From the NCBI RefSeq assembly GCF_000003815.2, contig NC_049989.1:6186255-6250254 (forward strand): DNA of 64,000 nucleotides. The letters run 5' to 3'. Below, in pieces: positions 32,101 through 60,700 of the stretch. A program made the translations under genes and the position numbers. The notes under the pieces were generated by a model. It was not told the DNA's origin. It did not search any database and saw only the letters and a list, made by a program, of their open reading frames with translations. This stretch comes from Branchiostoma floridae (taxonomy: Eukaryota; Chordata; Leptocardii; Amphioxiformes; Branchiostomatidae). Position 1 is the stretch's first letter; each line of letters starts with the position of its first letter.

Positions 32101-35100
32101 AATGCAATGGCTATTCACCGGTATCTGTCTTGTGTGTAATTGTGTCTTTGTATTCCCATTATATTTTCATAGCCCGTGCGCATCAGTGTACTGTACTGGC
32201 GAGAGAAGCAACCGGACACCTATGCCCTAAAGAAGGGTTTCCCTGTGTTTGTAGACCACACCATACCCCACAAGTATGGTCTTCCCAGCTTAGAGTATCC
32301 AGGAATATACAAGGTACCTAGAATCAGGGGCTGTGCTATGTTACCAACATGTCACTTTTAAGAAATCATTTTGTTACGGAAAGACCTCAACAGATAAAGT
32401 TTTATCCTAAAATTGTTGACAAATTCACAGTTTTACTGATGGCCAGAGGGCTCCATGAAATATGGAGGTATAGATTTTGGTGTGTCTGTCTGTGTGTCTG
32501 TCTGTGTGTCCGGATATTTGTGGTCACCATAGCTCTATAACCTCTGGATAGATTGTAATGATGTTTGGTGTGTGGATGGGGTTGGGAAGACGAAGGTCAA
32601 GGTTGATTTTGTGCTCTCTGGTGAGCGACCTGCAGCCAGAACTTTGATTTTTACCTTTGCCAGAATGGCTAAGGTTATGTTTTGGGCTTGTGAGTCTGTG
32701 TGTGTGTCTGTGTGTCTGTTAACAGCATAACTCAAGAAGTCTTGGATGGATCCCGATAATATTTGGTAGGTGGGTAGGGGTCGGGAAAACAAAGGTCAAG
32801 TTCAATAATGGGCCCCCTAGCGGCTTGCTAAGGTACTGCAGCAGAACCTCAAATTTTGATATCTCGTGTTCTGGACATGCTGTGATCATGATTTTTGAGT
32901 GGTAAATAGCCCTTGAGGCAGAGAGTAAGTGCTGTGAGTTTGGGCCCCCTAGCGGCTTTTTTGGAACTGCAGGCGCCGGTTTCCTTTCAAACTTTGGATG
33001 AGAATAACTCTACAACGTGTTGATGGATCGTCATGATTTTTGGTATGTAGATAGAATGAGTGATGACTTACATAATGGTATACTAATTATGCAAGTCAGC
33101 AGCTAATTTGCATAATTAATGAGGAAAAATTATAAATCCACTACATTCCATGATAGGACTTTCAAACTTGTCACATATGTAGCTGGGAAGGAGAGAAATG
33201 TCGACAGATATCAATTATGCAAATGATGACCTCATTTGCATAATTAATGAGAAAATATGAACATGTTGACGGATCATCATGTTTTTTTGTATGTAGGTAG
33301 CGTAAGTGAAGACCTACATAATGAGATAACAATTATGCAAATCAACAGCTAATTTGCATAATTAATGAGGATATTTGATAAATTCACTACATTCCATGAT
33401 GGGGCTTTAAAACTTGTCACATATGTAGCTGAGAAAGAGAGAAATGTCAATACATATTTATCATGCAAATGATGACCTCATTTGCATAATTAATGAGAAA
33501 ATATTAACGTGTTGACGGATCGTCATGATTTTCGGCATGTAGATAGCCTAAATGAAGACTTCTATAATGTGATACTTATTATGCAAGTTAACAGCTAATT
33601 TGCATAATTGATTAGGAAAAGTTCATAAATCCACTGCATTCCATTATAGTACTTTCATCAAAGTTGTCACATATGTAACTGAGAAAGAGGGAAGAGAGTA
33701 AGAGGTGTATTTAAAGACTTTGAAAGAGAATAAGTCAAGAATGGATCAAAGGATCATCATGATTTTTGGTATGCTGATAGCTTAAGTAATGCTTGATACA
33801 ATTTGATATCAATTAATTGTAAATTGGGATCTAATTTGCATAATAAATGCCAAAATTTTATAAACCAACTCCAAGCATTTAATTATAAAGAAAATGAAAT
33901 GAGTAATGCATTTGTCTACAGACATCATTCTACATAACAAACCTGGTTTATTTGGCAAAGGTATGTTTCATATCTATTTTCATATCTTTATTTTTGACCT
34001 TGACAATCTATTATCTTGATTTTTAGTGGCAGATAGCTTGTGATGTAAGGAAGAAGTGATGTATATTTTGGCCCCCTAGCAGCTTGCTGTGGAAGAGTAG
34101 GGGCATTCTGGTCAAAATCTTCCAAGGAGCATAATGGAACATAGCAACGACAGATTTCTATGATATTTAGCATGCATGTATCTTTGGCAGAGATGTACAT
34201 ATTGAAGTGCAAATTATCTTTCTCATTTGAGCAGATTTCTTTGGGTTAATGTTTTTATTCCAGATGTCTGAAATATATCTGTATGGAATGCCCAGTTGTG
34301 AATACCCTGGAAAATTTAAGGTTATTCTTTATTCTTGTTTATTGATATAACAACTATGCATGTGCAATAATGTGGTTTTATTCGGTGGTTATCCTGGGCT
34401 CGAAATACTGGGTGCATGTGCACCCAGGTGTACCCAAAATATTTTCTTGGGTTTATGTATGTAAAGATATCAAAGTGTAGTAGTATACATCATATTCTTG
34501 ACATCTAAGGGTTAGAAAGATAATAAAAATGTCTGTCAATAGTGTCATGGTACTTGTTTAAGAATTTGATAGCATATAACTATGTTTTGTTATTAGTTTT
34601 TTTCTGACATTCTACTTAAAGTGGTGCACCCAAAAAAGTTTTGGTGCACCCAATTTTTTAAGCTGGGTGCACCAGTGCACCTAATCCCAAAAATGAATTT
34701 TGAGCCCTGACATCTCATGGGGGCCAATGAAGCTACGGCCATTGTTTGGTTGCTGGAATTTTTCAGTTCTGTATTCCTTTTTCCCTTCCATTACTCACAT
34801 TCACACAGTCTGGATAGACTGACTGACACAGACACAGGACTCACACTCACTCATTCACTGGTTCATTGTTTGTTGTTCACATCGGGCGAGGGCTACACAT
34901 GCCTGCACACAGATGTGGGGACTTGATGGCAGCTCAACAGCAGCCTGTCTTTGAGGTTGTAGTTTTATCTAAAAAACAATAATTGTGTTTTATAAAAATC
35001 TTTCAGTGCTAACATGGCACGTGATGTTGGGATAGGGTAACATTTCAGTACCAAGGACAGGACTATATCAGGGGTGGTAGGGTAGTATCACATCTCAGTA

Positions 35101-36507: not shown

Positions 36508-37267
36508 CCCATAACTGGATGCAAAAAAAAGAAGAAATCAGAGTGGGAAAAATGTTCCAAAGGGTATGTGGAGCAGTACTCTTTTACTGCGATAAATTCA
36601 AATGAAGTGAATTTTTTTTACATATATTTGATATGTGTACGTATCTTAGATGTATATTTATCCTCACTGACAATATCTGTGACAAATGCCAAATTCAGCC
36701 AGATAAATACTGTGTACAGTGTTGACTACCAACACAGATGAATTTTCATGCTTAACATTGTGTAAGAGTAACGTTATCTGTTTTATTGTATCAATAACTC
36801 AGGGAATACAAACTCTTGATTGGAACCAGGTTCCTGTGATCACAAGTTTTCTTCAGTTTTTTTTTTTTACTTCTGTTCTCACCAAACAGCTTTCAAAGTC
36901 TTTCAGAAAGAAACCTTATGTTGTATAATGTATGCTCTAATTTAAAACTAAGAATTCTTTGATTGGGCAATAATGAAGGCTCAATAAGATGTTTATGATG
37001 TTCTATAGCCATAGAACTGTTGATTAGAATGCAACAGAAAAGAGTCGTATATACAAACAGTATTTGACATTTTATACTTGTAATTATTGTTATTTCTATC
37101 AGTCATCATTTTGTTTAAAATTATCAGTCATATTTTTTTCCAATATTTGGATACAAAATTTGGATACAAAATACTCATATGACAACAAAATTTGGATACA
37201 AAAGGCTCATATGAGTTATGACAACGATAAGATTTCAGGGCATTTAATAGTTAGACATACAGTATCA
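36508..37267. other. PIPOX downstream flank
   Basis: AT-rich sequence without supported genes; a short direct repeat of AAATTTGGATACAAAA occurs near 37155-37205. Confidence 0.4.
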
Positions 37268-37630
37268 GGGCTCGAAATTCATTTTTGGGATTAGGTGCAC
37301 TGGTGCACCCAGCTTTAAAAATTGGGTGCACCAAAAAAATTTTGGGTGCACCACTTAAATTTTAGTACAAGCTGATGGCAAAACTTAGCTACAAGCTATC
37401 GAATTCTTAAACAAGTACCATGACAGACATTTTTATTATCTTTCTAACACTTTCTTTCTTTCACAAGAATATTATGTATACATGTGTACTAGTATACTTT
37501 GATATCTTTACATACATAAACATAAGAAAATATTTGGGTGCACCCTGTGCCCCCACAGAAAATAATTGGGTGCACAGCTTCAATTTTGGGTGCACCTGGG
37601 TGCACATGCACCCAGTATTTTGAGCCCTGA
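37268..37630. mobile_element. Second copy of the GGGCTCGAAAT element, opposite orientation
   Basis: It starts GGGCTCGAAATTCATTTTTG and ends CAGTATTTTGAGCCCT, the mirror order of the copy at 34395-34709, with the same GGTGCACC words inside. Confidence 0.75.
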
Positions 37631-37755
37631 GTATGATACACACACACGTGACAAGCGAGTGTACTTATAAAGACATAGTTTTTCTTCAGTTGCACCATAC
37701 AAGGTCAGTTGCTGTAACGTTAGTACAATGTATCTTTGACACCTGACATGTATTA

Positions 37756-38007
37756 GGCCACAGCAAGTAAATTTTATGAATGACATGTGTGCAAAAATAA
37801 TGAGACAGTGCCAAAAAAAAAAAAATGGGTAGAAAATCCAAGATGGCTTAATTTTCGAAAATAGGTATTCTCTACTATGTATGATTATTAGGCTACAACA
37901 CATGTTCCCGAAGAGGAATAAAAATTCTTGTTTTTTTTTTTCTTCTAAAATCAGGCAAAAATTAATGAGCGCGCTCATGTCATCCATAAGATTTACTTGC
38001 TGTGGCC
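37756..38007. mobile_element. 252-bp MITE with TTA target duplication
   Basis: GGCCACAGCAAGTAAATTTT at the left and AGATTTACTTGCTGTGGCC at the right are inverted ends; TTA flanks both sides. The GGCC start and TWA target match the 6868-7725 element, so the two probably use the same type of transposase. Confidence 0.85.
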
Positions 38008-38071
38008 TTATGTAGAGTGTAGGAGCTATAATACAGCCGGATACCAGGCTAGTTTCTAATAGAAAAGCACA

Positions 38072-38722
38072 TTATTGTAGGCCAGACTTGTCCCGTAGCT
38101 GCTTGACGAGAATGTCCACACATCTGTCCATCATGGTCGCAACCACTTCCTCCTCCTCTCGACTGAAACGACCGAGAACATAGGAGGTCACTTTTTCTCT
38201 CGCTGCCGGTCGCCCAATCCCGACTCGTACCCTTCTCATAGCCGTGGAATTTAGACAACTTATGGCCGAACGAACTCCGTTGTGTCCCCTAGCCGAGCCC
38301 CCTTCCTTCAGCACACACGACCCAAGGGGCTTGTCCAAGTCGTCGTGAACCAAAATGACGTCTTCTGGCTTTACCTGGAATCTTCTGACGGTCTTGGCAA
38401 CACTTTCGCCGTTCACATTCATGAACGCCCGTGGTTTCAGGACAACAACACTGTGTTTATCAAGGGTTGTAGTTGCGACGTCGCCACCACAGTCTCTTGC
38501 TCTTCTCCACTGCATGTTGTAGTATTCAGCCAGCTTGTCCACCACCCTCATCCCCACGCTGTGCCTTGTGTCAGGCATACTGTAGTTACCCAGGCCAACA
38601 ATGACCGTCCTTGTGGGATTCTGAAGCACCGCTGTGCTGACAGACTCAGGCATCGTCGGGGCGCCCAGTCTGAAACGAATATCGCTAAAAACTTGCCTGA
38701 GAGCGCGGTATAAAGTCACCAT
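38072..38722 (-). CDS. PTRH1: Peptidyl-tRNA hydrolase 1
   Basis: An intronless 216-residue frame of the bacterial-type Pth family. Family active-site positions are present: Asn46 in VGLGN, His54 in DTRHSVGM, Asn102 in AFMNVNGES, Asp127 in VHDDLD and Asn148 in ARGHNGVRS. The enzyme frees tRNA from peptidyl-tRNA that drops off ribosomes; an N-terminal basic, amphipathic stretch (MVTLYRALRQVFSDIRFRLG) suggests import into mitochondria. The frame stays open upstream to another ATG at 38971, which would add 83 residues; the ATG at 38722 is chosen because it gives the usual family length. His is followed by Ser where many members have Asn. Confidence 0.93.
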   Translation of the reverse strand: MVTLYRALRQVFSDIRFRLGAPTMPESVSTAVLQNPTRTVIVGLGNYSMPDTRHSVGMRVVDKLAEYYNMQWRRARDCGGDVATTTLDKHSVVVLKPRAFMNVNGESVAKTVRRFQVKPEDVILVHDDLDKPLGSCVLKEGGSARGHNGVRSAISCLNSTAMRRVRVGIGRPAAREKVTSYVLGRFSREEEEVVATMMDRCVDILVKQLRDKSGLQ

Positions 38723-39118
38723 CGCCGAGAATCCTCGAATGTTGACCAGTGATGACGAAAGAAACAACGAAGGTTCATGTTCAGGGGTCTGTCTTACTGG
38801 TACTGACGCAATGTTAGCCACACGTGCGAAGGAATCACTTCCGGGGCAGCAGAACACAGTATTTATGCGCGACCCCCGGGTACATAAAGTAGTACGGATA
38901 AATAAACCTTGGATAAAACTTGTTGAAGGGAAGGTAGAAAACCTTATTTGAGAGGCAGCCAGATATGACATGTGCTGCGTGTTCAAGGAAGGTGTCGACT
39001 TTGAGACTGTATGATTTGGATTGTGAAAGTTTTCTATTTCGCGTATAAATGCGCCCCATGACCCGACCCAACTGCCTTTCTAGTGTGAGCCGGCTGCAGT
39101 TATTTGACCTCCGCAGAG
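38723..39118. other. PTRH1 5' flank and left border of the tandem array
   Basis: An open frame continuing upstream from PTRH1 may be an extended N-terminus or leader. The sequence up to CTCCGCAGAG at 39118 is unique; the array begins at the next base. Confidence 0.5.
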
Positions 39119-42100
39119 AAATTTGTCAATTCTCAAGTTCAGGGGGGTGACAGGGCAAATTTCAGTATTTCCGGACTTGCGCAGATGACCCAGTTTTAGT
39201 GCCCTCAGAATGCTTAGGTAGGCTTGGCAAAAGTGGCTGTAAAATTGTTTTTCTTGGGATATGTTTGGATTTTGGAGGTGCATATTATAGGTAAGGGTTG
39301 TAGCTTCTATATCATGTTGAAAAAACAGATTTTTAGTGATATTTGTGGCTGCAGTAGGCCTTAGAAGTTAGGTGTTTTGGTGTTGTTTACATGCAGTGAA
39401 AGGGGGTGAAAAGGTCTCCCACCGATGTTTTGACGGCATATAATATAATTCCGCCGTAAATTTTTTCCTTTTTTTGTCGCTAAATTACTCTTCAGAGGTC
39501 GGACAACCATGCCAATGTGAGTTTTTCATGTTCTAAAAGTCAGATAGGTGATTTTTGACAGCCTCTTTCTCCCATGATTCCCATTGTTAAGAATATGTAT
39601 ATGAAATACCGAAATGCAGCCTGCATGCGTTAGTCAGGGTATTCAAGTTCAATATTGGCAGGTGTCAAGACACTTCAAGTGATGCGGGAAGGGTTGTCAA
39701 GCATCGTCACAAGTTTAAAAGACTTCACGGAGACCCTACCCCTAGGATTGGTCCCCAGGGAGCACAGGTGTCAGGAGGCCTGTGGTAAGGTTTGTGGCTT
39801 TGATTAGACTTCATATCGCTTGGCAAAAAGTGACACAAACAGAGGAAAATGGTAAAATCTGCTCACCCTGTCACAAGGAGACTACTCTCCATCAATTTAG
39901 ACACCAAAATTTGTATCTAAATGCTGTTGAACCACACTTTGGAGCAGATACTGGGAGTGCACAGAATGGGGGGGGGGGGTGTAGGTGTGCCCTTGGGGGC
40001 TTATATGTCCTCGGGGGCTAATGTGTTCCCCCCAATTGGTTATGTGGGCAATAGAAAGGATTTACCTTACTCAACTAAATGAAATTTATTAAGAAATTCT
40101 GCCATTTTAGTGTTTTGGGGGCTGATTTCGTACTTTCTGTACCTTTTATTGACAATGCAATATGTACTATCATAAAATGCTTCAAAGTCTAACCTGAGCG
40201 CTTTTCAATACAACTTTTAGTTGTGCAAATGGTTAGAGACTACTCTCCTTATGCTAGAAAGATCAATTTTTAACTTTTTCTTCAGTTTGTGTCACTTTTT
40301 GGTGAATGCTATGGCGCCTATCAAATGCATCAGACCACTGCCAAAGCCTTGAGGAAAGTCCTCTGACACCTGCCATGAGATCTACTCCCCTGGGACCATT
40401 CTTGGTCAGAAAGCTTTGAAAGTTGGGATATTGTTTGACAACTCTTACCCGCATCATGCGAAATGATTGAAATTTGTCAATTCTCAAGTTCAGGGGGGTG
40501 ACAGGGCAAATTTCAGTATTTCCGGACTTGCGCAGATGACCCAGTTTTAGTGCCCTCAGAATGCTTAGGTAGGCTTGGCAAAAGTGGCTGTAAAATTGTT
40601 TTTCTTGGGATATGTTTGGATTTTGGAGGTGCATATTATAGGTAAGGGTTGTAGCTTCTATATCATGTTGAAAAAACAGATTTTTAGTGATATTTGTGGC
40701 TGCAGTAGGCCTTAGAAGTTAGGTGTTTTGGTGTTGTTTACATGCAGTGAAAGGGGGTGAAAAGGTCTCCCACCGATGTTTTGACGGCATATAATATAAT
40801 TCCGCCGTAAATTTTTTCCTTTTTTTGTCGCTAAATTACTCTTCAGAGGTCGGACAACCATGCCAATGTGAGTTTTTCATGTTCTAAAAGTCAGATAGGT
40901 GATTTTTGACAGCCTCTTTCTCCCATGATTCCCATTGTTAAGAATATGTATATGAAATACCGAAATGCAGCCTGCATGCGTTAGGCAGGGTATTCAAGTT
41001 CAATATTGGCAGGTGTCAAGACACTTCAAGTGATGCGGGAAGGGTTGTCAAGCATCGTCACAAGTTTAAAAGACTTCACGGAGACCCTACCCCTAGGATT
41101 GGTCCCCAGGGAGCACAGGTGTCAGGAGGCCTGTGGTAAGGTTTGTGGCTTTGATTAGACTTCATATCGCTTGGCAAAAAGTGACACAAACAGAGGAAAA
41201 TGGTAAAATCTGCTCACCCTGTCACAAGGAGACTACTCTCCATCAATTTAGACACCAAAATTTGTATCTAAATGCTGTTGAACCACACTTTGGAGCAGAT
41301 ACTGGGAGTGCACAGAATGGGGGGGGGGGGTGTAGGTGTGCCCTTGGGGGCTTATATGTCCTCGGGGGCTAATGTGTTCCCCCCAATTGGTTATGTGGGC
41401 AATAGAAAGGATTTACCTTACTCAACTAAATGAAATTTATTAAGAAATTCTGCCATTTTAGTGTTTTGGGGGCTGATTTCGTACTTTCTGTACCTTTTAT
41501 TGACAATGCAATATGTACTATCATAAAATGCTTCAAAGTCTAACCTGAGCGCTTTTCAATACAACTTTTAGTTGTGCAAATGGTTAGAGACTACTCTCCT
41601 TATGCTAGAAAGATCAATTTTTAACTTTTTCTTCAGTTTGTGTCACTTTTTGGTGAATGCTATGGCGCCTATCAAATGCATCAGACCACTGCCAAAGCCT
41701 TGAGGAAAGTCCTCTGACACCTGCCATGAGATCTACTCCCCTGGGACCATTCTTGGTCAGAAAGCTTTGAAAGTTGGGATATTGTTTGACAACTCTTACC
41801 CGCATCATGCGAAATGATTGAAATTTGTCAATTCTCAAGTTCAGGGGGGTGACAGGGCAAATTTCAGTATTTCCGGACTTGCGCAGATGACCCAGTTTTA
41901 GTGCCCTCAGAATCCTTTTGGCCATTTTTAAGGGTTTTTGGGGGGCGGGATTTTCGTACCTTTTCTGTACCTTTTTATTGGACAATGCAATATGTACTAT
42001 CCATAAAATGCTTCAAAGTCTAACCTGAGCGCTTTTCAATACAACTTTTAGTTTGTGATTTTTAGTGATATTTGTGGCCGCCAGTAGGCTTAGAATTAGG

Positions 42101-45048
42101 TGTTTGGTGTTGTTACATGCAGTGAAAGGGGGTGAAAAGGTCTCCCACCGATGTTTTGACGGCATATAATATAATTCCGCCGTAAATTTTTTCCTTTTTT
42201 TGTCGCTAAATTACTCTTCAGAGGTCGGACAACCATGCCAATGTGAGTTTTTCATGTTCTAAAAGTCAGATAGGTGATTTTTGACAGCCTCTTTCTCCCA
42301 TGATTCCCATTGTTAAGAATATGTATATGAAATACCGAAATGCAGCCTGCATGCGTTAGGCAGGGTATTCAAGTTCAATATTGGCAGGTGTCAAGACACT
42401 TCAAGTGATGCGGGAAGGGTTGTCAAGCATCGTCACAAGTTTAAAAGACTTCACGGAGACCCTACCCCTAGGATTGGTCCCCAGGGAGCACAGGTGTCAG
42501 GAGGCCTGTGGTAAGGTTTGTGGCTTTGATTAGACTTCATATCGCTTGGCAAAAAGTGACACAAACAGAGGAAAATGGTAAAATCTGCTCACCCTGTCAC
42601 AAGGAGACTACTCTCCATCAATTTAGACACCAAAATTTGTATCTAAATGCTGTTGAACCACACTTTGGAGCAGATACTGGGAGTGCACAGAATGGGGGGG
42701 GGGGGTGTAGGTGTGCCCTTGGGGGCTTATATGTCCTCGGGGGCTAATGTGTTCCCCCCAATTGGTTATGTGGGCAATAGAAAGGATTTACCTTACTCAA
42801 CTAAATGAAATTTATTAAGAAATTCTGCCATTTTAGTGTTTTGGGGGCTGATTTCGTACTTTCTGTACCTTTTATTGACAATGCAATATGTACTATCATA
42901 AAATGCTTCAAAGTCTAACCTGAGCGCTTTTCAATACAACTTTTAGTTGTGTAAATGGTTAGAGACTACTCTCCTTATGCTAGAAAGATCAATTTTTAAC
43001 TTTTTCTTCAGTTTGTGTCACCTTTTGGTGAATGCTATGGCGCCTATCAAATGCATCAGACCACTGCCAAAGCCTTGAGGAAAGTCCTCTGACACCTGCC
43101 ATGAGATCTACTCCCCTGGGACCATTCTTGGTCAGAAAGCTTTGAAAGTTGGGATATTGTTTGACAACTCTTACCCGCATCATGCGAAATGATTGAAATT
43201 TGTCAATTCTCAAGTTCAGGGGGGTGACAGGGCAAATTTCAGTATTTCCGGACTTGCGCAGATGACCCAGTTTTAGTGCCCTCAGAATGCTTAGGTAGGC
43301 TTGGCAAAAGTGGCTGTAAAATTGTTTTTCTTGGGATATGTTTGGATTTTGGAGGTGCATATTATAGTTAAGGGTTGTAGCTTCTATATCATGTTGAAAA
43401 AACAGATTTTTAGTGATATTTGTGGCTGCAGTAGGCCTTAGAAGTTAGGTGTTTTGGTGTTGTTTACATGCAGTGAAAGGGGGTGAAAAGGTCTCCCACC
43501 GATGTTTTGACGGCATATAATATAATTCCGCCGTAAATTTTTTCCTTTTTTTGTCGTTAAATTACTCTTCAGAGGTCGGACAACCATGCCAATGTGAGTT
43601 TTTCATGTTCTAAAAGTCAGATAGGTGATTTTTGACAGCCTCTTTCTCCCATGATTCCCATTGTTAAGAATATGTATATGAAATACCGAAATGCAGCCTG
43701 CATGCGTTAGGCAGGGTATTCAAGTTCAATATTGGCAGGTGTCAAGACACTTCAAGTGATGCGGGAAGGGTTGTCAAGCATCGTCACAAGTTTAAAAGAC
43801 TTCACGGAGACCCTACCCCTAGGATTGGTCCCCAGGGAGCACAGGTGTCAGGAGGCCTGTGGTAAGGTTTGTGGCTTTGATTAGACTTCATATCGCTTGG
43901 CAAAAAGTGACACAAACAGAGGAAAATGGTAAAATCTGCTCACCCTGTCACAAGGAGACTACTCTCCATCAATTTAGACACCAAAATTTGTATCTAAATG
44001 CTGTTGAACCACACTTTGGAGCAGATACTGGGAGTGCACAGAATGGGGGGGGGGGTGTAGGTGTGCCCTTGGGGGCTTATATGTCCTCGGGGGCTAATGT
44101 GTTCCCCCCAATTGGTTATGTGGGCAATAGAAAGGATTTACCTTACTCAACTAAATGAAATTTATTAAGAAATTCTGCCATTTTAGTGTTTTGGGGGCTG
44201 ATTTCGTACTTTCTGTACCTTTTATTGACAATGCAATATGTACTATCATAAAATGCTTCAAAGTCTAACCTGAGCGCTTTTCAATACAACTTTTAGTTGT
44301 GCAAATGGTTAGAGACTACTCTCCTTATGCTAGAAAGATCAATTTTTAACTTTTTCTTCAGTTTGTGTCACTTTTTGGTGAATGCTATGGCGCCTATCAA
44401 ATGCATCAGACCACTGCCAAAGCCTTGAGGAAAGTCCTCTGACACCTGCCATGAGATCTACTCCCCTGGGACCATTCTTGGTCAGAAAGCTTTGAAAGTT
44501 GGGATATTGTTTGACAACTCTTACCCGCATCATGCGAAATGATTGAAATTTGTCAATTCTCAAGTTCAGGGGGGTGACAGGGCAAATTTCAGTATTTCCG
44601 GACTTGCGCAGATGACCCAGTTTTAGTGCCCTCAGAATGCTTAGGTAGGCTTGGCAAAAGTGGCTGTAAAATTGTTTTTCTTGGGATATGTTTGGATTTT
44701 GGAGGTGCATATTATAGGTAAGGGTTGTAGCTTCTATATCATGTTGAAAAAACAGATTTTTAGTGATATTTGTGGCTGCAGTAGGCCTTAGAAGTTAGGT
44801 GTTTTGGTGTTGTTTACATGCAGTGAAAGGGGGTGAAAAGGTCTCCCACCGATGTTTTGACGGCATATAATATAATTCCGCCGTAAATTTTTTCCTTTTT
44901 TTGTCGCTAAATTACTCTTCAGAGGTCGGACAACCATGCCAATGTGAGTTTTTCATGTTCTAAAAGTCAGATAGGTGATTTTTGACAGCCTCTTTCTCCC
45001 ATGATTCCCATTGTTAAGAATATGTATATGAAATACCGAAATGCAGCC
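39119..45048. repeat. Tandem array of about 1.35 kb units, four full copies plus a third of a fifth
   Basis: The marker AAATTTGTCAATTCTCAAG recurs at 39119, 40470, 41821, 43196 and 44546, giving periods of 1351, 1351, 1375 and 1350. Copies are almost identical; only a few single-base differences and a G-run of 11 or 12 separate them. Each unit has a plus-strand frame of 79 codons and a minus-strand frame of up to 123 codons, neither with a recognisable domain. Within each unit the stretch at about 39690-39890 is a diverged inverted copy of about 40240-40462 (shared words GATGCGGG, GTTGTCAA, CAAAAAGTGACACAAAC). The longer period is due to a scrambled patch at 41913-42115. It could be a young satellite, a tandemly amplified foldback element, or partly an assembly product. 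Confidence 0.92.
41913..42115. other. Scrambled patch inside the tandem array
   Basis: After CCCTCAGAAT the sequence leaves the unit order, repeats a segment that belongs elsewhere in the unit (compare 41445-41575) with many extra single bases (for example GTACCTTTTTATTGGACAAT against GTACCTTTTATTGACAATGC), and rejoins at TTTTTAGTGATATTTGTGG. The next bases also lack several homopolymer letters. The error style resembles uncorrected long-read consensus rather than evolution. Confidence 0.75.
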
Positions 45049-45204
45049 TACTGCAGCCGTGACTGTCAGATACAACACTGGTCTGTCGGACACAAGAAGT
45101 GCTGTGGGCATGACGTGTACTCTGACGACCTACCAGACCCCTTCCAATCGATGCAAAAAATGCTAATGTACATTGATGAACATACTAGTAAACAACAAAC
45201 ATAA
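45049..45204 (+). pseudogene. Beheaded MYND zinc-finger exon joined to the array
   Basis: From 45049 the sequence matches the last exon of the two downstream ankyrin-MYND genes from YCSRDCQIQHWSVGHKKCCG onward, and ends with its own tail (SDDLPDPFQSMQKMLMYIDE...) and a TAA at 45204. The first part of the MYND finger (KTLKLC..CKLTR) and all earlier exons are missing; array sequence takes their place. A frame starting in the array at 45001 runs straight through the joint, so a chimaeric short protein is formally possible. An AATAAA at 45612 lies downstream. Confidence 0.85.
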
Positions 45205-46710
45205 CTCTTGTATAAAACATCTATATGAAGTATTGTTGACCAGATCGTACTGCTACAGCCGTATCAAATGTTTCACAAAGTAGCAAGTTGCATGGTACCG
45301 ACCCTGAACCATATATGTACTAGTCTTTTTGTCTAAGCATATGCTGATGGTGTCCTGGTGTTTTGTAAGAAAATAACGTCCAAATTAAAGTTCATGTCAG
45401 CTATGACATTGCTGGTTGCACTGTGTAGCCAAGAAGTCAGGCTTATGAAGAAGTCATTATCCCTGTGTTAAGAAGATCACTTATAATATTTTTAGTTGGC
45501 TTTTTTGCCATAAATTAACTAACATAATTTCATGTCTCATACTAAGTTGTCTACTTTTGCTTAGATTCTACCTCTTTTCTTCAATGAAACTGTCAGTTTT
45601 ACAAGCAGCCAAATAAACTTTCATTTCATGCAATGTCCGAAAGTCTTCAATGAATAGATATCTAATATATATATCTTTTAAAAAAAGTATATCGAGAGAG
45701 GGGGAGGGAGATAGAGAAAGAACATGGCTAAACATGAAATCCTATTGTGAAGGAAATCGACGGTGTAAATCTGCTACATTTCATCCCACAATTTTATGGA
45801 CCCAACATGTGGAATTTGTTGTGTAGGGTTATGTTGTTTAAACTAGAATAAAACAATGAAAACATGATTTGGGAAGAAAGTAAAGGAGCACACCCGGCAT
45901 GACATTCCCATAGAGCGTAGTTTGCAGAACGGATCTTGGCATCAATAAATCATCAGAACAACTGCCAAATGTCTTCTAAATTTCTACCCGCAAAGATGTC
46001 ATCCCCATATTTTGTGTATTTGTAGGGTTTAATCCCAATAGTAAACCTACTATATCACAGTTACCAATACAAAGCACTCATGGATGATATAAACACTGAC
46101 ACTAATTGTTCTCAGGTCACCCATAAAAAATGTGAAAAATTGATTAAAAAATATCACCAAAATCAAATTCAAATGTCCCAAACAATATTTTCTATATATA
46201 ACAGGCATATATTGTGCAGTTGTTAACCTTAGAGGGGTGAAATGCACTCCCGAAGATGGCATACTTATGTCTGCAATACAGCCTATATAGTAGAATGCCC
46301 AGCTGGTACCACCTGCAGTCTCGTTCTGGTGCTATGACCCCGGATGACCCCGGAAATCCAACATGGCCGCCACAACTGGAATTAACTCTATTACACATTT
46401 CTTCAGAATTATGACAAGTTATAACTGTTGGAATGTGAAGGGAAAGAAAAACCAAGGAAAAACACAGCCATACAAACATTGTGCGCACCCTAGCTTTGGT
46501 GGTTAGATTAAAATTGATTCTAACCTCCTTGCAATAACCAATTCACCGCTCGCATAGCTAGAGAGCTCATCGTTCGCACCCATGGCCCAGAGCAAGCAAA
46601 AGAAAGCTAGCGATCTGCCCGTCCAACCTCTGCTTGAACAAAATGTAACGGTCCAAAGCCAGCCAAACGCAAGGGGAACACCCACCCACGCACAGATTAT
46701 AGCACTTCTT
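45205..46710. other. Intergenic region after the MYND fragment
   Basis: AT-rich sequence. A minus-strand frame from an ATG at 46479 begins with a signal-peptide-like stretch (MFVWLCFSLVFLSLHIPTVI) but has no recognisable domain and is not called as a gene. Confidence 0.4.
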
Positions 46711-48637: not shown

Positions 48638-48686
48638 ACCAAACAACTTCCCCACATGTGTCAGTGGCGAACACACAGCTGAAAAG

Positions 48687-51600
48687 ATGTCCGAAAACGG
48701 TGATCCTAACGAAATGGCGGAAGATGTGAATGAACTTCTGCTGTCTGCGGCTATGGATGGATCAGTTGAAGGCGTCAACGCAGCATTGGAAGCTGGTAGG
48801 TCGAACCAAGACACAGTTTCCCCGACATCTGTGGAGATGTTTGTATTAAAGCGCTTGGATTGCAGTCATAACGCATCGCGCGGTTTTCAAAATGGCGGGA
48901 GAACTGACAGCATTTTTGATCATGACATTTCAGACTATGTTCTCTCTGTATCTCACTAGCGTGTTTTTAAACATGAGAATATCAGGAATGACGACACTGG
49001 CCAACTTTGTCAACTATGATCAACTCTACTTTCGTCCTCGCTGCACTGCCCTCATCGTGACGCTCGATCTCGCATCATGCAAGGGGTCCCGCGTACTCTC
49101 CAAGCAGATTTTTTAGTCGTTTTTATCGGGCTTTCTATTTTGCATTCTATCTTGCCGTGTCAAAACCTAACCTTTGGCTGGCGTACTTAAAGAAAATGAC
49201 AAAATAGAAAGCCCGATATAAACGACTAAAAAAAAACGTTAAAAAAACAGCTGGAGCCTAACCTCTGCTTGGACAGTAGGTCCCGCATCCGTTTTGGAGC
49301 AACACAACTCATTACGAGAAATGCAAAAAGGCCATGAAGGACACTGGCCAATTGGCAACTTCCGAAACGACTTTATAGACCAGGAGCAAGGAGGTTACTG
49401 TAAACGTTAAATCCTTACCTGGACCCCAGGAGCTCTTTCAAGGTTAATTCAACCTCCTTGTTGGACCCCAGCGCACGGGAACTGTCAAACTCACAACATC
49501 TGTGTACAGTAGCCTCCATAACAGGCTTTCTGGGGCCTTTTTGGCTCACTCACTGGCCAGTATTGTAATCAGCGACCCAGTACAAAAAGAAATGGCCAGC
49601 AAAAGTGTATTATGAGCCAGAAAAGGACCTGCTATAGAGGCTATAAGTATAGGACGTGTCCAGGTGCTGGCGCATAACTGGTTATGCTAAAAATGTAACA
49701 TTCCCTATGAATGCCGGGAAAGGGAGTTTGTCGTGGAAGGAGTTTCTCCCAAACTACCTTTCTAGGCAAACTTCTTTCCACAGCAAACTCCCTTTCCCGT
49801 CTAATGGAGATCAAAATAAACAAACAAACAACCTTAGCCAACTTTGAAACTAGCCAACCAGCGCCCCCTCCCCCCAATAAGATTAGATAAAAGCCAGCCC
49901 CATTCGAAGTCTGCGAAGGAGGCTAGCCGAAAACTTACATGGAGTCTTATTCGCAATTGACTAGCCTGGTATCCAGCCGTAATATAGCTCCCGAGTCTCT
50001 TCTCTCCTTTTCGCAATTAGTATGAATTACGAAGAGGAGAGAAGAGACTCGGGAGCTATATTATGGCTGGATACCAGGCTACAAATTGACTGCTAGGATA
50101 CATGTAGTGTCAACCTTTGAAAGCCCTGTGTCTATTCGTGAGGACATCTTATTTTGAGCATTGAAGTCCTTGATCTTGGAACCTCAGGCTCCATATCTTA
50201 TTTCATCCAAGAAGCTCTTATCTTGCTTGGATGGATCAAACAATTTGCGTTGATCTCAGAGCTAACGTAAGTAACTTATTTCATTTTCCAAGCAAATCTT
50301 ATGGTCTACAGCGGCCTGGCCATTCGTGACTTTGTTTTTAAAAAAAATTGCGATTATTGCTAGTCCCGACCATAACATCTGCTTCCATAATTAAAAGTAC
50401 TTCTCTCCAAGCAGAGGTTCGGTTTGCTGGCCAGCGGACATGAAGGATTCATGAATGAAGTGAACATCAGTGAACGAAAATGTAAAGCCCGCAGAAAAAA
50501 AAGCATAAAACACATCAAACACAGCCGAGGGCAACAATCTGGAGAGTAGATAATTCCCTCCCTTGGGTTGATAGTTATATACTGATCACTTTCTTCATCT
50601 TATACCAAGTCCTTGAAACTTTCAAATACGATTGGCAGTTTTCATCAGCTGTTTGTTTTGACTAAGGTAAGGAGATGGGTTTGACTTCCTTACAAATGAT
50701 ATCAACGTAATGAAATCTCGCATGTGCAATTCATTTTCAACGCAGGTGCAGACATTGACTTTGACCAGTTGGATGACTGGAACCCGGGCGATGACACAAC
50801 CTTACCTCCAAGCACGGCATTGCTCATTGCTTGTCAAAAGGGGCATGTGGACGTAGTGAAACTGCTTCTCCACAAGGGGGCGTCGTTAGTGAAGAGATCT
50901 ATGGGGGCATCGGCTCCCCTTCATGCTGCAGCGTCCAATGGTAGGTTAATCGCAATGCTATTCTCCAAGCAGAGGTTGGGTCGTGGAGATAGTAGTGGTC
51001 GGGATTTTTAAAGCAAAAGTAAAAATCCTGACCACTATATCATCAAACTATCTTTGTGACCCAAACTCTGCTTGGGGAAAACAAATGCTTGTCTGCTAAC
51101 GTTAAGCGCCATATTTCCAAATGTACACGGTAAAATGTAAGTGTAAGGCAGGTCTAGTGTTGGGCCAGAGTGTACTTTCCTGGTAAAACAAATATAGTTA
51201 CTGTTATTATAATTATTATCATCATTATCGTGAAAGTGACTAGTCTTGGATCATAGGAATCCAAAAACTAATAGGTAACGTTATGGCAGAGTTGCAGATC
51301 AGACATCTGACGAAGGTCGGTGAGATCAACTAAAAATCATGATTTATAGTATTTTCTTGTGTTGGAACAAAGTTTATACTTTGGATTCTACCAACGCAGA
51401 TGACTCTTTATTTGTGTGTTCACATTCACATATCATACTCCGTGGAAGTCAACATTTCTTTATACAAACTTGTATGCATTTCTTGTGTTGCAAACCAAAT
51501 CTCAGGGTGGACAGAGATAGTGGACTTACTTGTGCAGCATGGTGCAACAGTAGACATACAGGACGGCTTCTACGATACACCAATCATTGGGGCATGTCGC

Positions 51601-52611
51601 TACAAACATGTCGACACAGTTCGGCGACTGATTGAGCTTGGAGCGAGACCTGATTTGACCAACGGTCACGTAGGCCAGAAGTAAGTGTCAAACATTTTCA
51701 TCAGAATATAGAATGAACGATTGTTACCTCCATCAAAATGGTGGTATTGCTTTGCTTTAGCCTGTATGTATGTATGTGCCTGTATAATTATTGATACGAT
51801 ACATATGAATTGGTTATGTTTTTTTTGGTGCAGTCTGGAATCCAGTCAGTTAAGAGAAATCATGAGAGCCTGTACTACAATTGTTACACATTTCATATAT
51901 ATTACAATAGAATAGAATAGAATAATAGATTGTAACCTCCATGAAAAACTGAGGTATTGTGTGTGTGTGTCTGTGTGTGTGTGTGTGTGTGTCTGCGCTA
52001 ATTAAAAGCCAGTAAAACTTGTGAGACCATATAAGTGCACTCAAGGAGTTTATAAATAGAAAATGTATCAATATGTCGTTCCCTAACTGAGTCATACATT
52101 TTACTAGGTGGTGGAGAGAAGTTGAAAACTATGATTCTGTGGAAGAGAGTGTAAAGCTGTTACAAGAGGCAAGGAAGACCAAGCTGTTGAGATGCTGCAA
52201 CCCTAAGTGTGGTAAACCAGGCTACAGGTAGGTATTGCTGATGATGGTTCCGTGGTTGATGAATTATTTTTGGCACAATACTTTTCTCATCCTCAGTGCA
52301 AATGTTGCAATTGACCCAAAAAAGTATGTACGTGTTTCAAAAAAGATCGAAAGATTTTCTGTGCATTTGACCCAGTTCCTGATCAGCATTTGTCCCTTTA
52401 ATACATCTTCTGCAGGAAAACCCTGAAGCTGTGTGCCGGGTGCAAGCTGACCCGCTACTGCAGCCGTGACTGTCAGATACAACACTGGTCTGTTGGACAC
52501 AAGAAGTGCTGTGGGCATGACGCATACACTGAAGAACGACCAGACTTGGAGAAGAAATTTCTTTTGTACATAGGACAACATCTACAAATAGAAAGGGTGG
52601 TATTTGCTTAG
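48687..52611 (+). CDS. Ankyrin-repeat and MYND zinc-finger protein, gene A
   Basis: Exons 48687-48795, 50746-50940, 51506-51680, 52108-52227 and 52416-52611 join in phase to 264 residues. The N-terminus (DVNELLLSAAMDGSVEGVNA) and the next two exons form ankyrin repeats (TALLIACQKGHVDVVKLLLH and WTEIVDLLVQHGATVDIQDG). The last two exons build a MYND finger: CCNPKCGKPG, then LCAGCKLTRYCSRDCQIQHW and GHKKCC, with the zinc-binding Cys/His set. Such proteins act as intracellular adaptors; partners are unknown here. Intron 2 contains a foldback MITE. It is the middle member of a tandem family with 45049-45204 and 54703-62065. Confidence 0.9.
49094..49279. mobile_element. Foldback MITE with TCTCCAAGCAGA ends (gene A intron 1)
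   Basis: Left end TACTCTCCAAGCAGATTTTT, right end CCTCTGCTTGGACAGTA; inner arms TAGTCGTTTTTATCGGGCTT and AGCCCGATATAAACGACTA are inverted copies. Confidence 0.8.
49962..50081. repeat. Near-perfect 120-bp palindrome
   Basis: TAGCCTGGTATCCAGCCGTA... to 50014 is matched in inverse at 50030-50081 with a spacer of about 15 bp; GCTCCCGAGTCTCTTCTCTC is perfectly mirrored. A single related arm (GGAGCTATAATACAGCCGGA) lies at 38022-38052. Confidence 0.85.
50959..51079. mobile_element. Foldback MITE with TTCTCCAAGCAGAGGTTGGG end (gene A intron 2)
   Basis: The left end pairs with CCCAAACTCTGCTTGGGGAA at the right; the inner arms GTGGTCGGGATTTTTA and AAAAATCCTGACCAC are inverted. Confidence 0.8.
51958..51992. 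repeat. (TG)n microsatellite in gene A intron 3
   Basis: A short run of TG dinucleotides with a few interruptions. Confidence 0.9.
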
Positions 52612-54556
52612 GAGCAAATTCAGCTATGCATATACCGAGTATCAGCAACATATATACCCGGCATATATTCCTTTCCCGGCATTCCGTTACCTACGGTACG
52701 AAGAGTGAAAATAACAAACATGACTCTTGTATAATACATTCTATATGAAGCGATAGAACTACAGCCATAATCAGTAAACAAAGTACATTTAACAAGCTAC
52801 ATCATGAACTAACAATGCCCCACAAACCTAATCAAGCATGTAACGCTAGTTCACCTTAATTCGCGGGGTAACCATTATTCGTTGTATGTAAAGCGGAGCA
52901 TTTAGAGATATCAAGTCGACACGAGTATTTTAGACTGGAATGCTATGAAAATATTGCAATTTGAAACCAACGTCCGTCAACTACATATCACTAAATATCT
53001 CGTTTTTATAAACAACGGATAAAGGTTGCCATGTGGATAAAGGTGAACTAGCGTTAGCTCTTTCTTGCTATGGACATGATTCAGTTGTCTCATTCTACGT
53101 TTTACTGATTTAGTAAGATAAATCCACTTAAGTTGAAGGATTCTGTATGATGTATTAACGTAAGAAGATATAACAGACAGTAAAAGGGTTTGTTGGGTCG
53201 TTGATACCATCTACTTGTTCACCAATTTGAAAAGGAGAAATAGTCGTTAATAATTGTGTAAGGACTTTGACAAGTGTACTTCTAGGAAAGGATACAAGGA
53301 CGCCTATTTATGTCTGCTTGCAAGTCGCTACTATTGGTCATACATTGTTGATTGTTCATTGCGATATCCGTACGTTTACAAAAAGGATGGCGGCCGAGAC
53401 TTGAGTGTTCGCGCTCCCGTTAGTGACGTCATTTCCGGTTTGATGTCCTAGCAAAGCCGGACCCGCGTTTTCGGTGACAGGGTGTTCAAAACTTGTTTTT
53501 AATAGGAGAACCGTGTGCTTTTTTAGTAAATGTCATCTCCACTAGATAAAGCTACGTTTGTTGCAGCTTGTTTGCATATATTCTGAAATTATGGTTTTTA
53601 TGTGTCACAAGCTGTTTGATATGTAGATGGTCAGCTTAATACTTCAACATAATTGTTCTATTGCAGTGATCTCTTGACGTCTGATCATTATGTTTGAATG
53701 TCTACCCTATATGAAACACACACACACAATTGACCATTCCTATAAATCAATCCTCACCTTTATGCCAAGGATATCATTTTTACATTCTGATGGACATTTT
53801 ATCACAAATTGTACTATGTACTTTTTGCTCATAAATAAACAAATATTTGCCCATCTCCTGGCGTCCTTATTTTCTTTCCTAAACAGTGCCATAATCAGTC
53901 AAATAGAATTATTTCGTGAAAGGTTCCGACTCCCACTGACGTTTTAAAATCCAACCTTCTCTTGAACAATGCTAACGTTAACTCAAATGTACTTTTGACT
54001 GTAAAACCTGGTAGAAATGACTGTACTCCGTTCTTGTTATTTTCTTTGACCAGGGTAAGCCCTACAACGTTTTGAACCGGTCCAGGAATCTATGTTGAAA
54101 CTATGTAAAACCTCCTTGATTGATAATAAGCTACTAGTGGGACAAAGAAAAAACAAGGAGAGAAAGCCAACATTTATGTAATGCTTTGGAATAGTCCATA
54201 CCAGACTGTTTCCAGGGCCTGCACAAACAAACTCCTCGGCTCTAGGGCCAACATGCCCCGAAGGAACATTCTTCTATCCAGGCTAATATTCCGCACTGTT
54301 TAGGTGGTTACATAGGGAGATCGTTACCTTCTTTTGACTATCCCCGCTTACTGTCATCAAAGAGGTTATCCTTGCTGTTATCTATTACATAAGGGGCAAG
54401 TTCAACAGTCCGTAAAAGATGGCAACCAAACGCAAGAGTCACATATCACAAGTGGTACCAAAGTCCTTCTAATCTTCTAATCAGGCTGACTATAAAATCA
54501 GCGTACCTATAAATACCTTTTCTAAAACTTTTGCTTTCTCATTCTACCCGTGAGAT
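52612..54556. other. Intergenic region between the two ankyrin-MYND genes
   Basis: No gene is supported. The block near 53155-53260 (GTAAGAAGATATAACAG..CACCAATTT..AATAATTGT) matches the flank of gene B at 62400-62480, showing that downstream flanks were copied with the genes. Confidence 0.5.
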
Positions 54557-54603
54557 CACGTGACACGCATTAGTAGTGACGTGGCAAAACAATAGGTCAC
54601 GTG
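54557..54603. promoter_or_regulatory. Paired CACGTG E-boxes upstream of ankyrin-MYND gene B
   Basis: ATCACGTGAC at 54556 and GTCACGTGAC at 54597 lie 100-145 bp before the ATG at 54703, like the pair before gene A. Confidence 0.5.
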
Positions 54604-54702
54604 ACATACCCCTTTTATCATCTCAAGCTTCTGCGTTCTTGACCCAGACAGTTGGCGTGAAAGGTGGACGACAGCTAGGGTTCTAACGAAGTCGGAACGA
54701 CG

Positions 54703-57700
54703 ATGGCGGAAAATGTGAATGAAGCGATGTTGTATCTTACTAGGAAAGGTTCAGTTGTAGGCGTTAAAACGGCTTTGGAAGCTGGTAAGTTGAACCAAGT
54801 TGACTATGTAGGAGTTTTGGTTTCAACAAGGAGTTTTTTGCGTTTCGTCGCCCTCTGGCTACTAGATTTTACTTCAAGAAAAAGACAGTTCACACTCATA
54901 AATGTAGACGAAACGCCAGCTTTTTTTAAAAGCACTTGTTTATCAAGTTGATGAAAGCTCATTGGTTCCGATGGTAGTTTGTTAGTTGGTGGGAAGGCCG
55001 GTCGAAAAAAAATATGATAGGAATAGGTCACGATTTTTCCCACCAACCTCTGCTTGGAGAGTAGTTTGTTAGAGCTGTGTGTTTCATAGCCTGGTGACGG
55101 TGACCATACCATCGGGCGTTCGCTGGCTGTTGTCTCTTCGGTGCCGTGAGGGTAAGCGGCCCTTCCAGTTAATTAGCGCAAACTGTAATCTCTTCTCCCC
55201 ATTCGGAAGTACCCTCGTTGCCCGAGAACAGCGCTCAGCGGCTACGGCTTCAGTTCTCGGGCCCCTAGCAACACATGCCCCGTAAAATCGTAATTTAGCC
55301 GGCCCGGGGAGTTATGCCGCCGGAAAACTGCGGGGTCGTAGCATAACTTCCTTGTAGGCCCGCCAGCGCTGTTCTCTGACAACCAGGGTACCCAAAAAAA
55401 AGTTATCCTTTCGCTGTTTTTGGACGACTTTTATTCGTTTTCGTATTTTGCTATAGTCCGTTTTTGTTTTGGCCTGCGTTTTTTGTTGGTTTTCTAGTTT
55501 GGTTGGTATCGTCTGTTTTTCTTTCGGCTGGCCTGGACACTGGAACTGTGAATAGGGTAGCACCTGTGCATAGTATAGACAAAATGTCATTTTCTCTAGG
55601 CCTAATTTTCTCCTATGGCCTACTATATGCAATTTAGCGTATACTGCGTACTGTTGTTTTATTTTAGACATCCAGTTTACAGCAGAAATGCAGTTGGATT
55701 TAAACTTCTCTCCCGAGTAGATTTTTTAAAAAGAGCCCGACCGAGGGCTTTGGACCAGTAGATGATTATTCAAATGTAAGATAAGATTTGCACACAAGTG
55801 TGAAGTACAGTAGCCTGGGTACAATGCACTAGCACATTCTGATCTTTTCCGTTGTGAGCTCGGACAAAGGAAAGTCGAACATGACTGTTGTGGGCCTTTT
55901 ATCTTTTGTTGTAGCTATTAGTGCAACACACACAAACACACAAAACAACAACAACATTCCCCCCAATCAACAGCTTCAAACGTATCTCATCTATTTTTTG
56001 CAACTTCCTAACCAACAATCACAATGAATTGAATGATAATAAAGGCTCAGGTGCGAAAAACAAACTCCGAACGTACAGACTAGTCCACATACAATGAAGA
56101 GCAGTATTTGAAAATTACAAACATTCGACACAGAACTACCATTGCTATACTCTCCAAACAGAGGTTAGGCTCCGGCTGTTTTTTGACGTTTTTTTAGTAG
56201 TTTTTATGGGGCTTGCTATTTTGTCATGTTTCTTGAAGTCCGCCAGCCAGTATAGCCTAACCTCTGCTTGGAAGTTGGAGAGTACAATTGCTAAACTAAG
56301 ACCAATTGCCACAAACTGCGAATTGAATCGGAAAGGCACAACTGCACTCCTTTAGAACAAAGTCTGCCGATTTTGTACTTCAAACAATGAAACATGGTAG
56401 AAGATGAAGTACACTTCATTGTTGATTGTAATATGTATGTCAATGATAGAAATACTGTAGTTAGGTAATCTCCAAGCAGATCTTGCGTGGCAAAAGACAG
56501 TACTACTACTAGTATCATAAGCTGGGGAAAAAGTTTAGCCGGCAGAGGAGTGATCAGGAGTAACTTGGCAAATTTAATCCCCTGCTAGCTAAACTTCTTC
56601 CCCCTCCTTGCGATCGTTGCCCAAGCTAACAAATTCCCTGCTATTAAGTCTTGTACGTGTGTCTCTTCACAAGTGTACACTGTATTATAGAAATCCTTTC
56701 TGATCTCAAGTCTCAGCATAGATGAATGGGGCAGTTTTGATTATCATAAGAAGTCATAACTGCCTTGTGTTGATAAAACTTTTGAGCTACATTATACAAT
56801 GACAATGATCTTTATTGCTCATTCTTGCCCAACATGGGCTAAATGCATTGTGTTGTATAGCTAAAGTATGGCTATAAAGTGATTACATTTTATATCATCT
56901 ACAGAGTCAAAACAAACTTACAGATGACAAAAAAGGGAAACATGTTCTTGTCATGTAATATTTTAACCTCCTTTTTAATACTACTACATGCCGGTATTTG
57001 TTTGACTTCCTTGCAAAATCATGTCAACGTCATAACATCTCTTAATCGATTCTTTTAATTGAATCATGGATCACCAAATGCAGGTGCAGACATTAACTAC
57101 AAACCAGGCTTCAAACAGCCGGGAAACCGCATCACAAGCACCGGCACAGCACTCTTCAACGCTACCAGAGATGGGCATGTAGATGTAGTGAGGCTGCTGC
57201 TCCGCGAGGGGGCGTCTGTGGTGCAAAGATTTGGTTCACTTGCACCCCTTCATGTAGCAGCGCTCAAAGGTAGGTAAACAGAAGACGAAGCCCTAATATT
57301 ACTAAGATCTACTAACAGCTTACGCTAAGGGCACAACCCACCGTACGTGCAAATACGTGTTGTCTACGTGCCAAAACGTGTGCAATCTTTTGGGATCCGT
57401 AAGTGGTAAGTACCGCCTCCGTACACGTGACTGACGTGGCCTCCCAAAAACGCACGGACAAACTGCACGTACGGCGGGTTGTGCTTTTAGCTTTAAAAGT
57501 ATGCACCCCACCCCGCACAAAAGAACGACGCCGGTCCAGAAGTCTTTACATTTCACACGTGTGATTATAGATACATTGTACATAACTTACATTACGCTGT
57601 ATTATGTGCATTCTTATTCGTAGAAGGCATTATCTTTGCTTGATATGAATCTATCTACTAGTATTGTGTGCCAATCCTATGTAAGGTGGACAGCAGTGGT

Positions 57701-60700
57701 GGATTTGCTGGCTCACAATAAAAGGATATTCACAATGATTTTAAAAATTTCAGGTCATACAGGAAGGACGTGAAATATACATCATTTATAACTTTATACA
57801 AGAACATGTGTTTACATTGCATATTACTTCATGTAAGGCAAAATTTGATTGACGTGTATTTCTTGTCTCGCAAATGTAACCTAGGATACACAGAGATAGT
57901 AGACTTACTGGTGCAGCATGGTGCAACAGTAGACATACGGGACAACTGGGACTACACTCCACTCATGTTTTCATTTGAATACCAAGAGGTTGACACTGCT
58001 CGGCGACTGATTGAGCTTGGAGCAAGGCCTGATTTTCTCAAAGACCATGGGCAAGTCTTCAATGTTTTATACCAGGAATGTTTAGATCCACACGCAAGAA
58101 CCATGATGTCATAAAAACATGAGAATTTGAAATCATTTAACTCTACTCTACTCTACTCTACTCTACTCTACTCTACTCTACTCTACTCTACTCTACTCTA
58201 CTCTACTCTACTCTACTCTACTCTACTCTACTTACTTACTTATCCTCTTCGTCCCTGGTGAGACATAAGGCTATGACCTTCTTCCTCCAACTGGGTCGGT
58301 CCTGTGCTGCTGTCTGTACTGACTTCCAGGAGAGACCCATGGACACCAGGTCATCTGACACTGTTCTCCTCCACGTGGTTTTGGGTCTTCCTCTTTTTCT
58401 TTTACCGTCAGGTCTCCAAGTTAGTGCAACTTTTGGAATTCTGTTGTCAGTCATTCTCAGAATGTGGCCAAGCCATTTTAACCGCCTGTGTGTAATTTCT
58501 GTAGTTATTCTTCCACATTCGGTTATTCGGTGCAGCTCTTCGTTTGTTATCTTGTTAGGCCAGAAGATGTTGCATATTTTCCTAAGACAGTTGTTGTGGA
58601 ATGCGTCTAACTTCCTCATATCTGTCTTGGTGGCCCTCCAACTCTCAGCACCGTAGAGAAGGACTGATTTGACATTACTATTGTATAGCCTGATTTTGGT
58701 TTTGCGGCTGTATTGTTTGGACTTCCAAATGGTTTGCAGACGGCTGAAGGACGCCCTGGCTTTGTCGAGTCGGCTTTTAATGTCTTTCCGTGCACCATCC
58801 TGCGTACTCATCACACTTCCAAGGTAAGTGAAGACCCCTACGCTCTCCAGGACCTCTCCGTCTAAACTGATGGGAGGGGTTGTAGGAGTGTTTATGTACA
58901 TAACTTGAGTCTTCTTTTTGTTAATGTACAGTCCAGTTTGTTTACCCCTTTCGCTTAACCGGTCAGTCTTTTCCTGAAGAAGGGTACGCTTGGATGCTAA
59001 GACAGCCAAATCATCGGCAAAGTCAAGGTCCTCGAGGTACTTAGAAGGAGTCCATCTGATACCCCGTGGTCGGTCAGAAGTTGTTTCTTTCATTACCCAG
59101 TCAATAGTGATTAGGAACAGTATTGGCGAAAGAATGCACCCCTGCCTGACACCAGACCTGACAGGGAACGATTCGGACAGACTGTTCTCTGTGATGACAC
59201 TGCATTCAAAATGTTTGTAAAAGGTTTCTATTAAGGTAACTATCTTGTGTGGAATACCATAAGCCCTCAGAATCTTCCAGAGGCTTTCCCTATGCACACT
59301 GTCAAATGCTTTCTGGAAGTCGATGAAGTTTATTAGCAGTGGGGAGTTCCATTCAATGCACTGTTCGATGATGTTCCTCAGTGCAAAGATTTGGTCCGAG
59401 CAGCCGCGGCCTTTTCGGAATCCTGCTTGTTCTTCCCTTAGTCTGGAGTCTATGGCACTGTCAATCCTTTTCAGGAGGATTCTGCAGAACACTTTACTGG
59501 GGATGGACAAAAGTGTTATACCCCTCCAGTTGTCGCAGTTACTAAGAACTCCCTTCTTAGGAATCTTGACGATTAGCCCTTTACTCCAGTCTTGCGGTAT
59601 GACTTCGTGTTTCCAGATTTTAGCAAACAGGTCAGTGAGGAGAAGGGTAGCTGTCGCACAATCAGCCTTCAGAAGTTCTGCTTGAATGGAGTCTATGCCT
59701 GGGGCCTTACCATTCTTTAGTGCCTTTATTGTAATTTCTGTTTGGCTACTTTCCGCTCTTCAATTTTCCTCCAAGTCTCTTGTGTCAGCCATTCTTTGTC
59801 CTTCCTCTTTCTATGGCCTAGGACTTTCTTGGCAGTTTCACTGTACACTTTCGTTATGGTATCCCAGGATGTTTCTACAACGTTAGGTTCTTCTTCGTCT
59901 ACTAGGTTTTCAAGGGCTTTAAAGCGGTTTCTTAGTTCTAGAGCAAATTCACGTCTGATTTCAGGTTTACGCAGTTTGGCAGTGTCAAACACCTTGCATC
60001 GTTGCTTGGTGGGAGGGCTTGCTCTCAGCTTCAGCCTGACCTTGGTAACTACCAGATGGTGGTCGCTGCCAACATCTGCTCCGCGGTAGGCTCTCACGTC
60101 CAGCACAGACCTCTGCCACTTCTTGTTCACCATTACATGGTCTATTTGGTTGATGGTGTGTCCATCCGGAGAGTTCCAAGTTAACTTGTGAATAGTTTTG
60201 TGAGGAAAGATAGTCCCACCTATCACCAGCCTGTTACTCAGACAGAGGTCCACAAGTCTCTCACCATTGTCGTTGATGCTGCCGCATCCATGACGACCCA
60301 TGGCATCTTCTCTCCCACTGTTATCACTGCCAACTTTGGCGTTAAGATCTCCCATTATGATTAACATGTCATGCTGTGGGGTTTTGCTGATTTCACGTTG
60401 TACTTGTTCGTACCACTCATCTTTGATGTCGTCTTCGGCATCATTGGTGGGTGCATAGCACTGTAAAACAGTGAGTCTGCAGTATTTGGAGTCAAATCTG
60501 GCTTTGATAAGTCTGTCACTGATGGGTTCCCATTCAAGGAGTGCTTTGGTTGCTTGTTTGTTCATTAGAAGCGCTACTCCATTTGCGTGTTGGCTGTCCT
60601 TACCCGAGTATACAATGGTTAGGCCGTCAGAAGTAGTTGTACGTCCTGAACCAGTCCATCTGCATTCACTCACACCAAGAACATCTAGGTTGTAGTTCAT

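Follow-up and report, generated by a model that had tools for sequence, protein, structure and literature searches.

The 64,000-nucleotide stretch of Branchiostoma floridae DNA analysed here (the window) carries a direct tandem array with a period of 1,351 bp, which is best read (probability of about 0.7) as a non-coding tandem repeat that was recently amplified at, or into, this place and that holds an old fold-back remnant of 832 bp in each unit. Read in this way, the array would provide a modest example of an old fold-back transposon that was turned, together with its surroundings, into a young tandem repeat. It also serves as a caution, as a 'homogeneous' array in a draft assembly may hide a garbled join. 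A function of the array in its own right is unlikely.

The array (positions 39120-45049 of the window, Table 1) is delimited by a sensitive self-search of the unit and a multiple alignment of the five copies; at the left edge, the unit match can be extended to 39118. A direct array of about 1.35 kb had been proposed in an earlier note made from the letters of this DNA, and the measured period bears this out. The note had further described four full units differing by a few single bases, which fails, as unit 3 holds an aberrant segment of 199 bp. Near-homogeneity thus stands for 5,731 of the 5,930 bp and is lost over this segment; likewise, a recent expansion is upheld for most of the array, where the copies differ by five substitutions and one indel in a homopolymer (G-run), and not for the aberrant stretch. 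All six of these differences are private to one unit each, a pattern as expected after a single burst. With the aberrant segment excepted, the array shows some traits of a satellite: it is tandem, apparently non-coding and built of homogeneous monomers, with 4.39 units in the window. Its absence from the list of Tandem Repeats Finder is explained by the longest period of that run (500).

Table 1. Features of the tandem array and its immediate flanks (positions in the window)
Feature	Position	Strand	Length	Remarks
Peptidyl-tRNA hydrolase open frame	38072..39079	-		left neighbour; Pept_tRNA_hydro, E 9.7e-49
Unit 1	39120..40470	+	1,351 bp	private substitution at 39634
Direct repeat TCAAGTTCA, left copy of putative target-site duplication	39643..39651	+	9 bp	
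Fold-back element	39652..40483	.	832 bp	example of unit 1, with the last 13 bp in unit 2; one per full period
Left inverted arm	39654..39946	+	293 bp	
Right inverted arm	40178..40481	-	304 bp	
Unit 2	40471..41821	+	1,351 bp	
Direct repeat TCAAGTTCA, right copy of putative target-site duplication	40484..40492	+	9 bp	
Unit 3	41822..43196	+	1,375 bp	aberrant segment inside; private substitutions at 42952 and 43022
Aberrant segment	41914..42112	+	199 bp	noisy copy of unit positions 982-1106, then noisy return to 208
Unit 4	43197..44546	+	1,350 bp	private substitutions at 43368 and 43557; G-run shorter by one base
Unit 5 (partial)	44547..45049	+	503 bp	
Array right edge	45048..45049	+	2 bp	CT, common to unit and MYND exon
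MYND exon remnant	45050..45204	+		with stop, 5' part missing; zf-MYND, E 3e-4, 21.2 bits (cut-off 22.7)

The two inverted arms, which had been noted before over a shorter extent than is found here, form most of the 832 bp element. They are identical at 209 of 273 ungapped columns (77%), with 64 mismatches and 17 gaps, and the longest exact duplex between them is 17 bp. Their local alignment score is 139; when the left arm region was shuffled 300 times with its dinucleotides preserved, no score exceeded 36.5. A lenient self-alignment spans the whole of unit stretch 535-1362, including the middle (58% over 849 columns), and the single strand is predicted to pair along its full length, outdoing each of 20 shuffles both as RNA (z -9.7) and as DNA (z -6.5). 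The termini of the element pair imperfectly, with a difference at the two outermost positions. Two bases beyond the end of each arm lies the nonamer TCAAGTTCA, which is exact and symmetric. A symmetric flanking repeat as good as this one occurs in 21 of 50,000 shuffles and, for positions taken 828 bp apart in the window, in 20 of 54,873 cases (~4e-4 by either control; the test is post hoc and uncorrected, and the window positions overlap). With arms that have diverged by 23%, a 9 bp repeat free of mismatches is a little surprising. The CpG value is 0.26 in the element, compared to 0.50 for the remainder of the unit and 0.67 for the window; such depletion would fit decay of the element, but TpG+CpA is not clearly raised (1.26 vs 1.14 and 1.21). 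A loose G-quadruplex motif is observed in the loop of the element.

This anatomy fits a decayed, non-autonomous fold-back DNA transposon, in which the exact 9 bp direct repeat that flanks the arms would probably represent the target-site duplication (TSD), and the element is perhaps Mutator-like. Mutator-like elements are described as typically having a TSD of 8-10 bp and inverted repeats of >100 bp (PMC5225508), and the element here has a direct repeat of 9 bp and inverted repeats of ~300 bp. On such grounds, Tetris (TSD of 8-10 bp) is placed in Mutator by its authors, to whom most fold-back elements seem to belong to this superfamily (PMC4079207). A MULE transposase has no Pfam match among the frames scanned, as expected for a non-autonomous element; with no transposase found, the Mutator superfamily is only a suggestion. 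Array-like sequence is not detected elsewhere in the window (best match of 30 bp, E 0.53), in agreement with the prior statement that the repeat matches none of the MITE families there. Since neither the element nor the rest of the unit has a second copy in the window outside the array, the 'transposon' label rests on anatomy. The earlier term 'undescribed element' is too strong, as long imperfect inverted repeats with a symmetric 9 bp repeat are of a known kind. Among the papers listed by searches of the open-licence PMC literature, none has a title on such an array in amphioxus. An exact 22-mer of the unit is absent from viral contigs and from contigs of prokaryote genomes, which says little for an animal sequence.

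Precedents for a fold-back element that yields satellite-like arrays include Tetris/TIR-220 of Drosophila virilis, which is similarly a non-autonomous fold-back element with no conserved frame, a TSD of similar length (8-10 bp, compared to 9 bp here) and tandem arrays on the kilobase scale (PMC4079207). The amplified unit of Tetris is a repeat of ~220 bp within the inverted repeats; by contrast, the whole element and ~510 bp of flank form the unit of the amphioxus array, which is short. Muta1 and its Mutator-like relatives share the inverted repeats of >100 bp and the TSD of 8-10 bp (PMC5225508), whereas the element here is without transposase, has degenerate terminal bases and has no relative in the window outside the array. 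The Bari1 clusters of Drosophila are also tandem arrays of a DNA transposon and are ascribed to rolling circle replication and reintegration; they number ~80 heterochromatic copies, compared to the ~4 copies with co-amplified flank found here (PMC9659126). The array would be like other young satellites derived from transposons, the mechanisms of which are reviewed (PMC12628747, PMC9659126).

The order of events is suggested by the divergence within and between units. Between the arms, 23% of ungapped columns are mismatched, whereas the copies differ by ~0.09% per unit from their common ancestor; thus, the palindrome predates the amplification by a long time. Judged from the diverged arms and the symmetric direct repeat, the element would have been inserted long ago and, much later, multiplied along with its surroundings, so that each 1,351 bp unit would be composed of the 832 bp remnant with its 9 bp TSD and ~510 bp of other sequence. 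Given the 4.39 units and the edge inside an exon, the multiplication may have come about through unequal recombination or through a circular or rolling-circle concatemer that became integrated, and breakage or template switching may have been encouraged by the imperfect hairpin. Had the units simply been duplicated in place, their number should be whole; the non-integer number instead points to an inserted concatemer, to subsequent loss at an edge, or to misassembly. If the mutation rate of B. floridae given in PMC12862219 holds (5.89e-9 per base per generation), the copies are ~148,000 generations old (48,000-346,000), compared to a depth of ~3.4 million generations for a typical pair of alleles. 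The copies are far younger than this depth, and the array should therefore still vary between individuals.

Unit 3 departs from the other copies within a single segment. After unit position 93 the sequence jumps, such that positions ~94-208 are replaced by a garbled form of 982-1106, and identity to the other copies resumes only past 42112. The aberrant segment has 14 short indel events and three mismatches in two aligned pieces (41914-41920 are unaligned), whereas the array's other 5,731 bp hold one indel (Fisher p 2e-20). The first half has short insertions and the second half deletions, mostly adjoining runs of the same base. This pattern appears like that of raw long-read errors, and the segment is probably an unpolished join of a long-read assembly. 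An old, divergent unit is thought to be less likely, because 14 of the 17 events are short indels, compared to the 64 mismatches and 17 gaps of the old arms. Template switching with mutation would seem too error-rich a source. With a faulty join likely in unit 3, the assembled copy number, internal order and junctions are unreliable.

The right edge of the array falls within an exon. From 45048 on, the sequence matches two downstream MYND paralogs (at 61873-61953, with 98% of 81 bp, and at 52455-52545, with 92% of 91 bp), of which the former is recognised by Pfam (61787-62062, E 4e-8). At the edge, ~39 nt of exon and the acceptor, which are present at both paralogs, are swapped for array sequence, and a BLAST search of 37000-39119 against the MYND paralogs finds no match on the left flank save 32 bp at 49960-49991. 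These observations leave two options: either a third MYND paralog lost its head when the array was inserted with a deletion, or the join is false. Both paralogs have ankyrin repeats upstream, and the two downstream gene copies (48639-62065), which carry these repeats and have MYND as the closing exon, are longer than the remnant. The MYND exons of these two copies are nearly identical for ~80 bp and then diverge sharply, a pattern that may point to gene conversion or to strong constraint. On the other side of the array, a TATAAA-like stretch (39040-39050, plus strand) lies ~70 bp ahead of the first unit; it may be fortuitous or may be a promoter directed towards the array.

The foremost alternative to a recently amplified repeat is that the array is largely an assembly artefact, in which the genome has one or two units, the rest arose from repeat resolution and haplotype merging, and flanks that do not belong together were joined. 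The garbled join in unit 3, the non-integer count of 4.39 units and a right edge that lies within an exon and shares only 2 bp with it are all consistent with such an artefact, and amphioxus assemblies are reported to be hampered by heterozygosity of 3.2-4.2% (PMC12500494). However, an assembler that invents copies would repeat one consensus, while the five private substitutions are spread over units 1, 3 and 4 and suggest that the assembly draws on three or more distinct copies. An artefact on this scale is considered unlikely, albeit with a real chance of being correct.

Two further readings give the unit a product and are far less probable. The first is a repeated gene, in which the long frames encode short proteins under selection. 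The open frames on both strands, which had been pointed out in the earlier note, are not supported as evidence for a gene: each unit has eight stop-free stretches of at least 50 codons, at the level of shuffled sequence (mean of 8.7 in 1,000 shuffles, p 0.71), and the frames recur in every copy because the copies are near-identical. In favour of a gene, the longest frame (151 codons) crosses the unit junction with a p of 0.027 over six frames; this is at most mildly long, and the frame is altered in unit 3 by the aberrant segment. The Pfam scan covered ten proteins, seven of them wholly within the array (4 of the ~11 frame classes with 50 codons or more were represented by a single copy), and none of these seven has a match at E 1. 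A frame over the left array edge has a weak, sub-threshold match (SID, E 0.056). Codon scores of the array frames are ordinary among the 136 stop-free stretches of the window, by a crude codon table trained on four frames of the window. The open frames look like chance, and on frame counts, Pfam and codon scores a repeated gene is rejected as the leading reading and is regarded as very improbable. A tandem array of RNA genes is likewise rejected, as a search of 39000-41900 against Rfam returns nothing above the gathering score (only sR17 below threshold, 14.6 bits vs 36, with two matches at the equivalent place in units 1 and 2), and ARAGORN with the bacterial code finds nothing in 38000-46000.

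The second, equally improbable, is a young tandem hairpin locus of variable copy number in a chordate, which would be transcribed and processed to endogenous siRNAs and of which the amplification would be favoured since more hairpins give more silencing. The hairpins are in tandem and the fold is strong (RNA z -9.7), and hairpin RNA (hpRNA) clusters of Drosophila, e.g., hp-CG4068, are described with 9-20 tandem copies (PMC10317233). Unlike hp-CG4068 (PMC10317233), the arms here are much diverged, at only 77% identity with a longest exact duplex of 17 bp, and the array is known from DNA sequence alone; moreover, a target was sought in the window and none was found. An LTR-like arrangement, considered because both ends of the array consist of unit sequence outside the palindrome, lacks TG...CA ends by eye.

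Other repeats are observed in the window. Two overlapping long frames on the minus strand (58236-61093), with an endonuclease domain (59729-61093) and a reverse transcriptase (58239-59759), may represent a nearly intact LINE-type retrotransposon, which sits between an ankyrin exon and the MYND exon of one downstream gene copy. An inverted pair of ~280 bp sequences (34427-34710 and 37265-37544) that are 79% identical is likely an unrelated MITE family, and a 246 bp tandem repeat is present at 33014-33693 in 2.7 copies with 83% matches.
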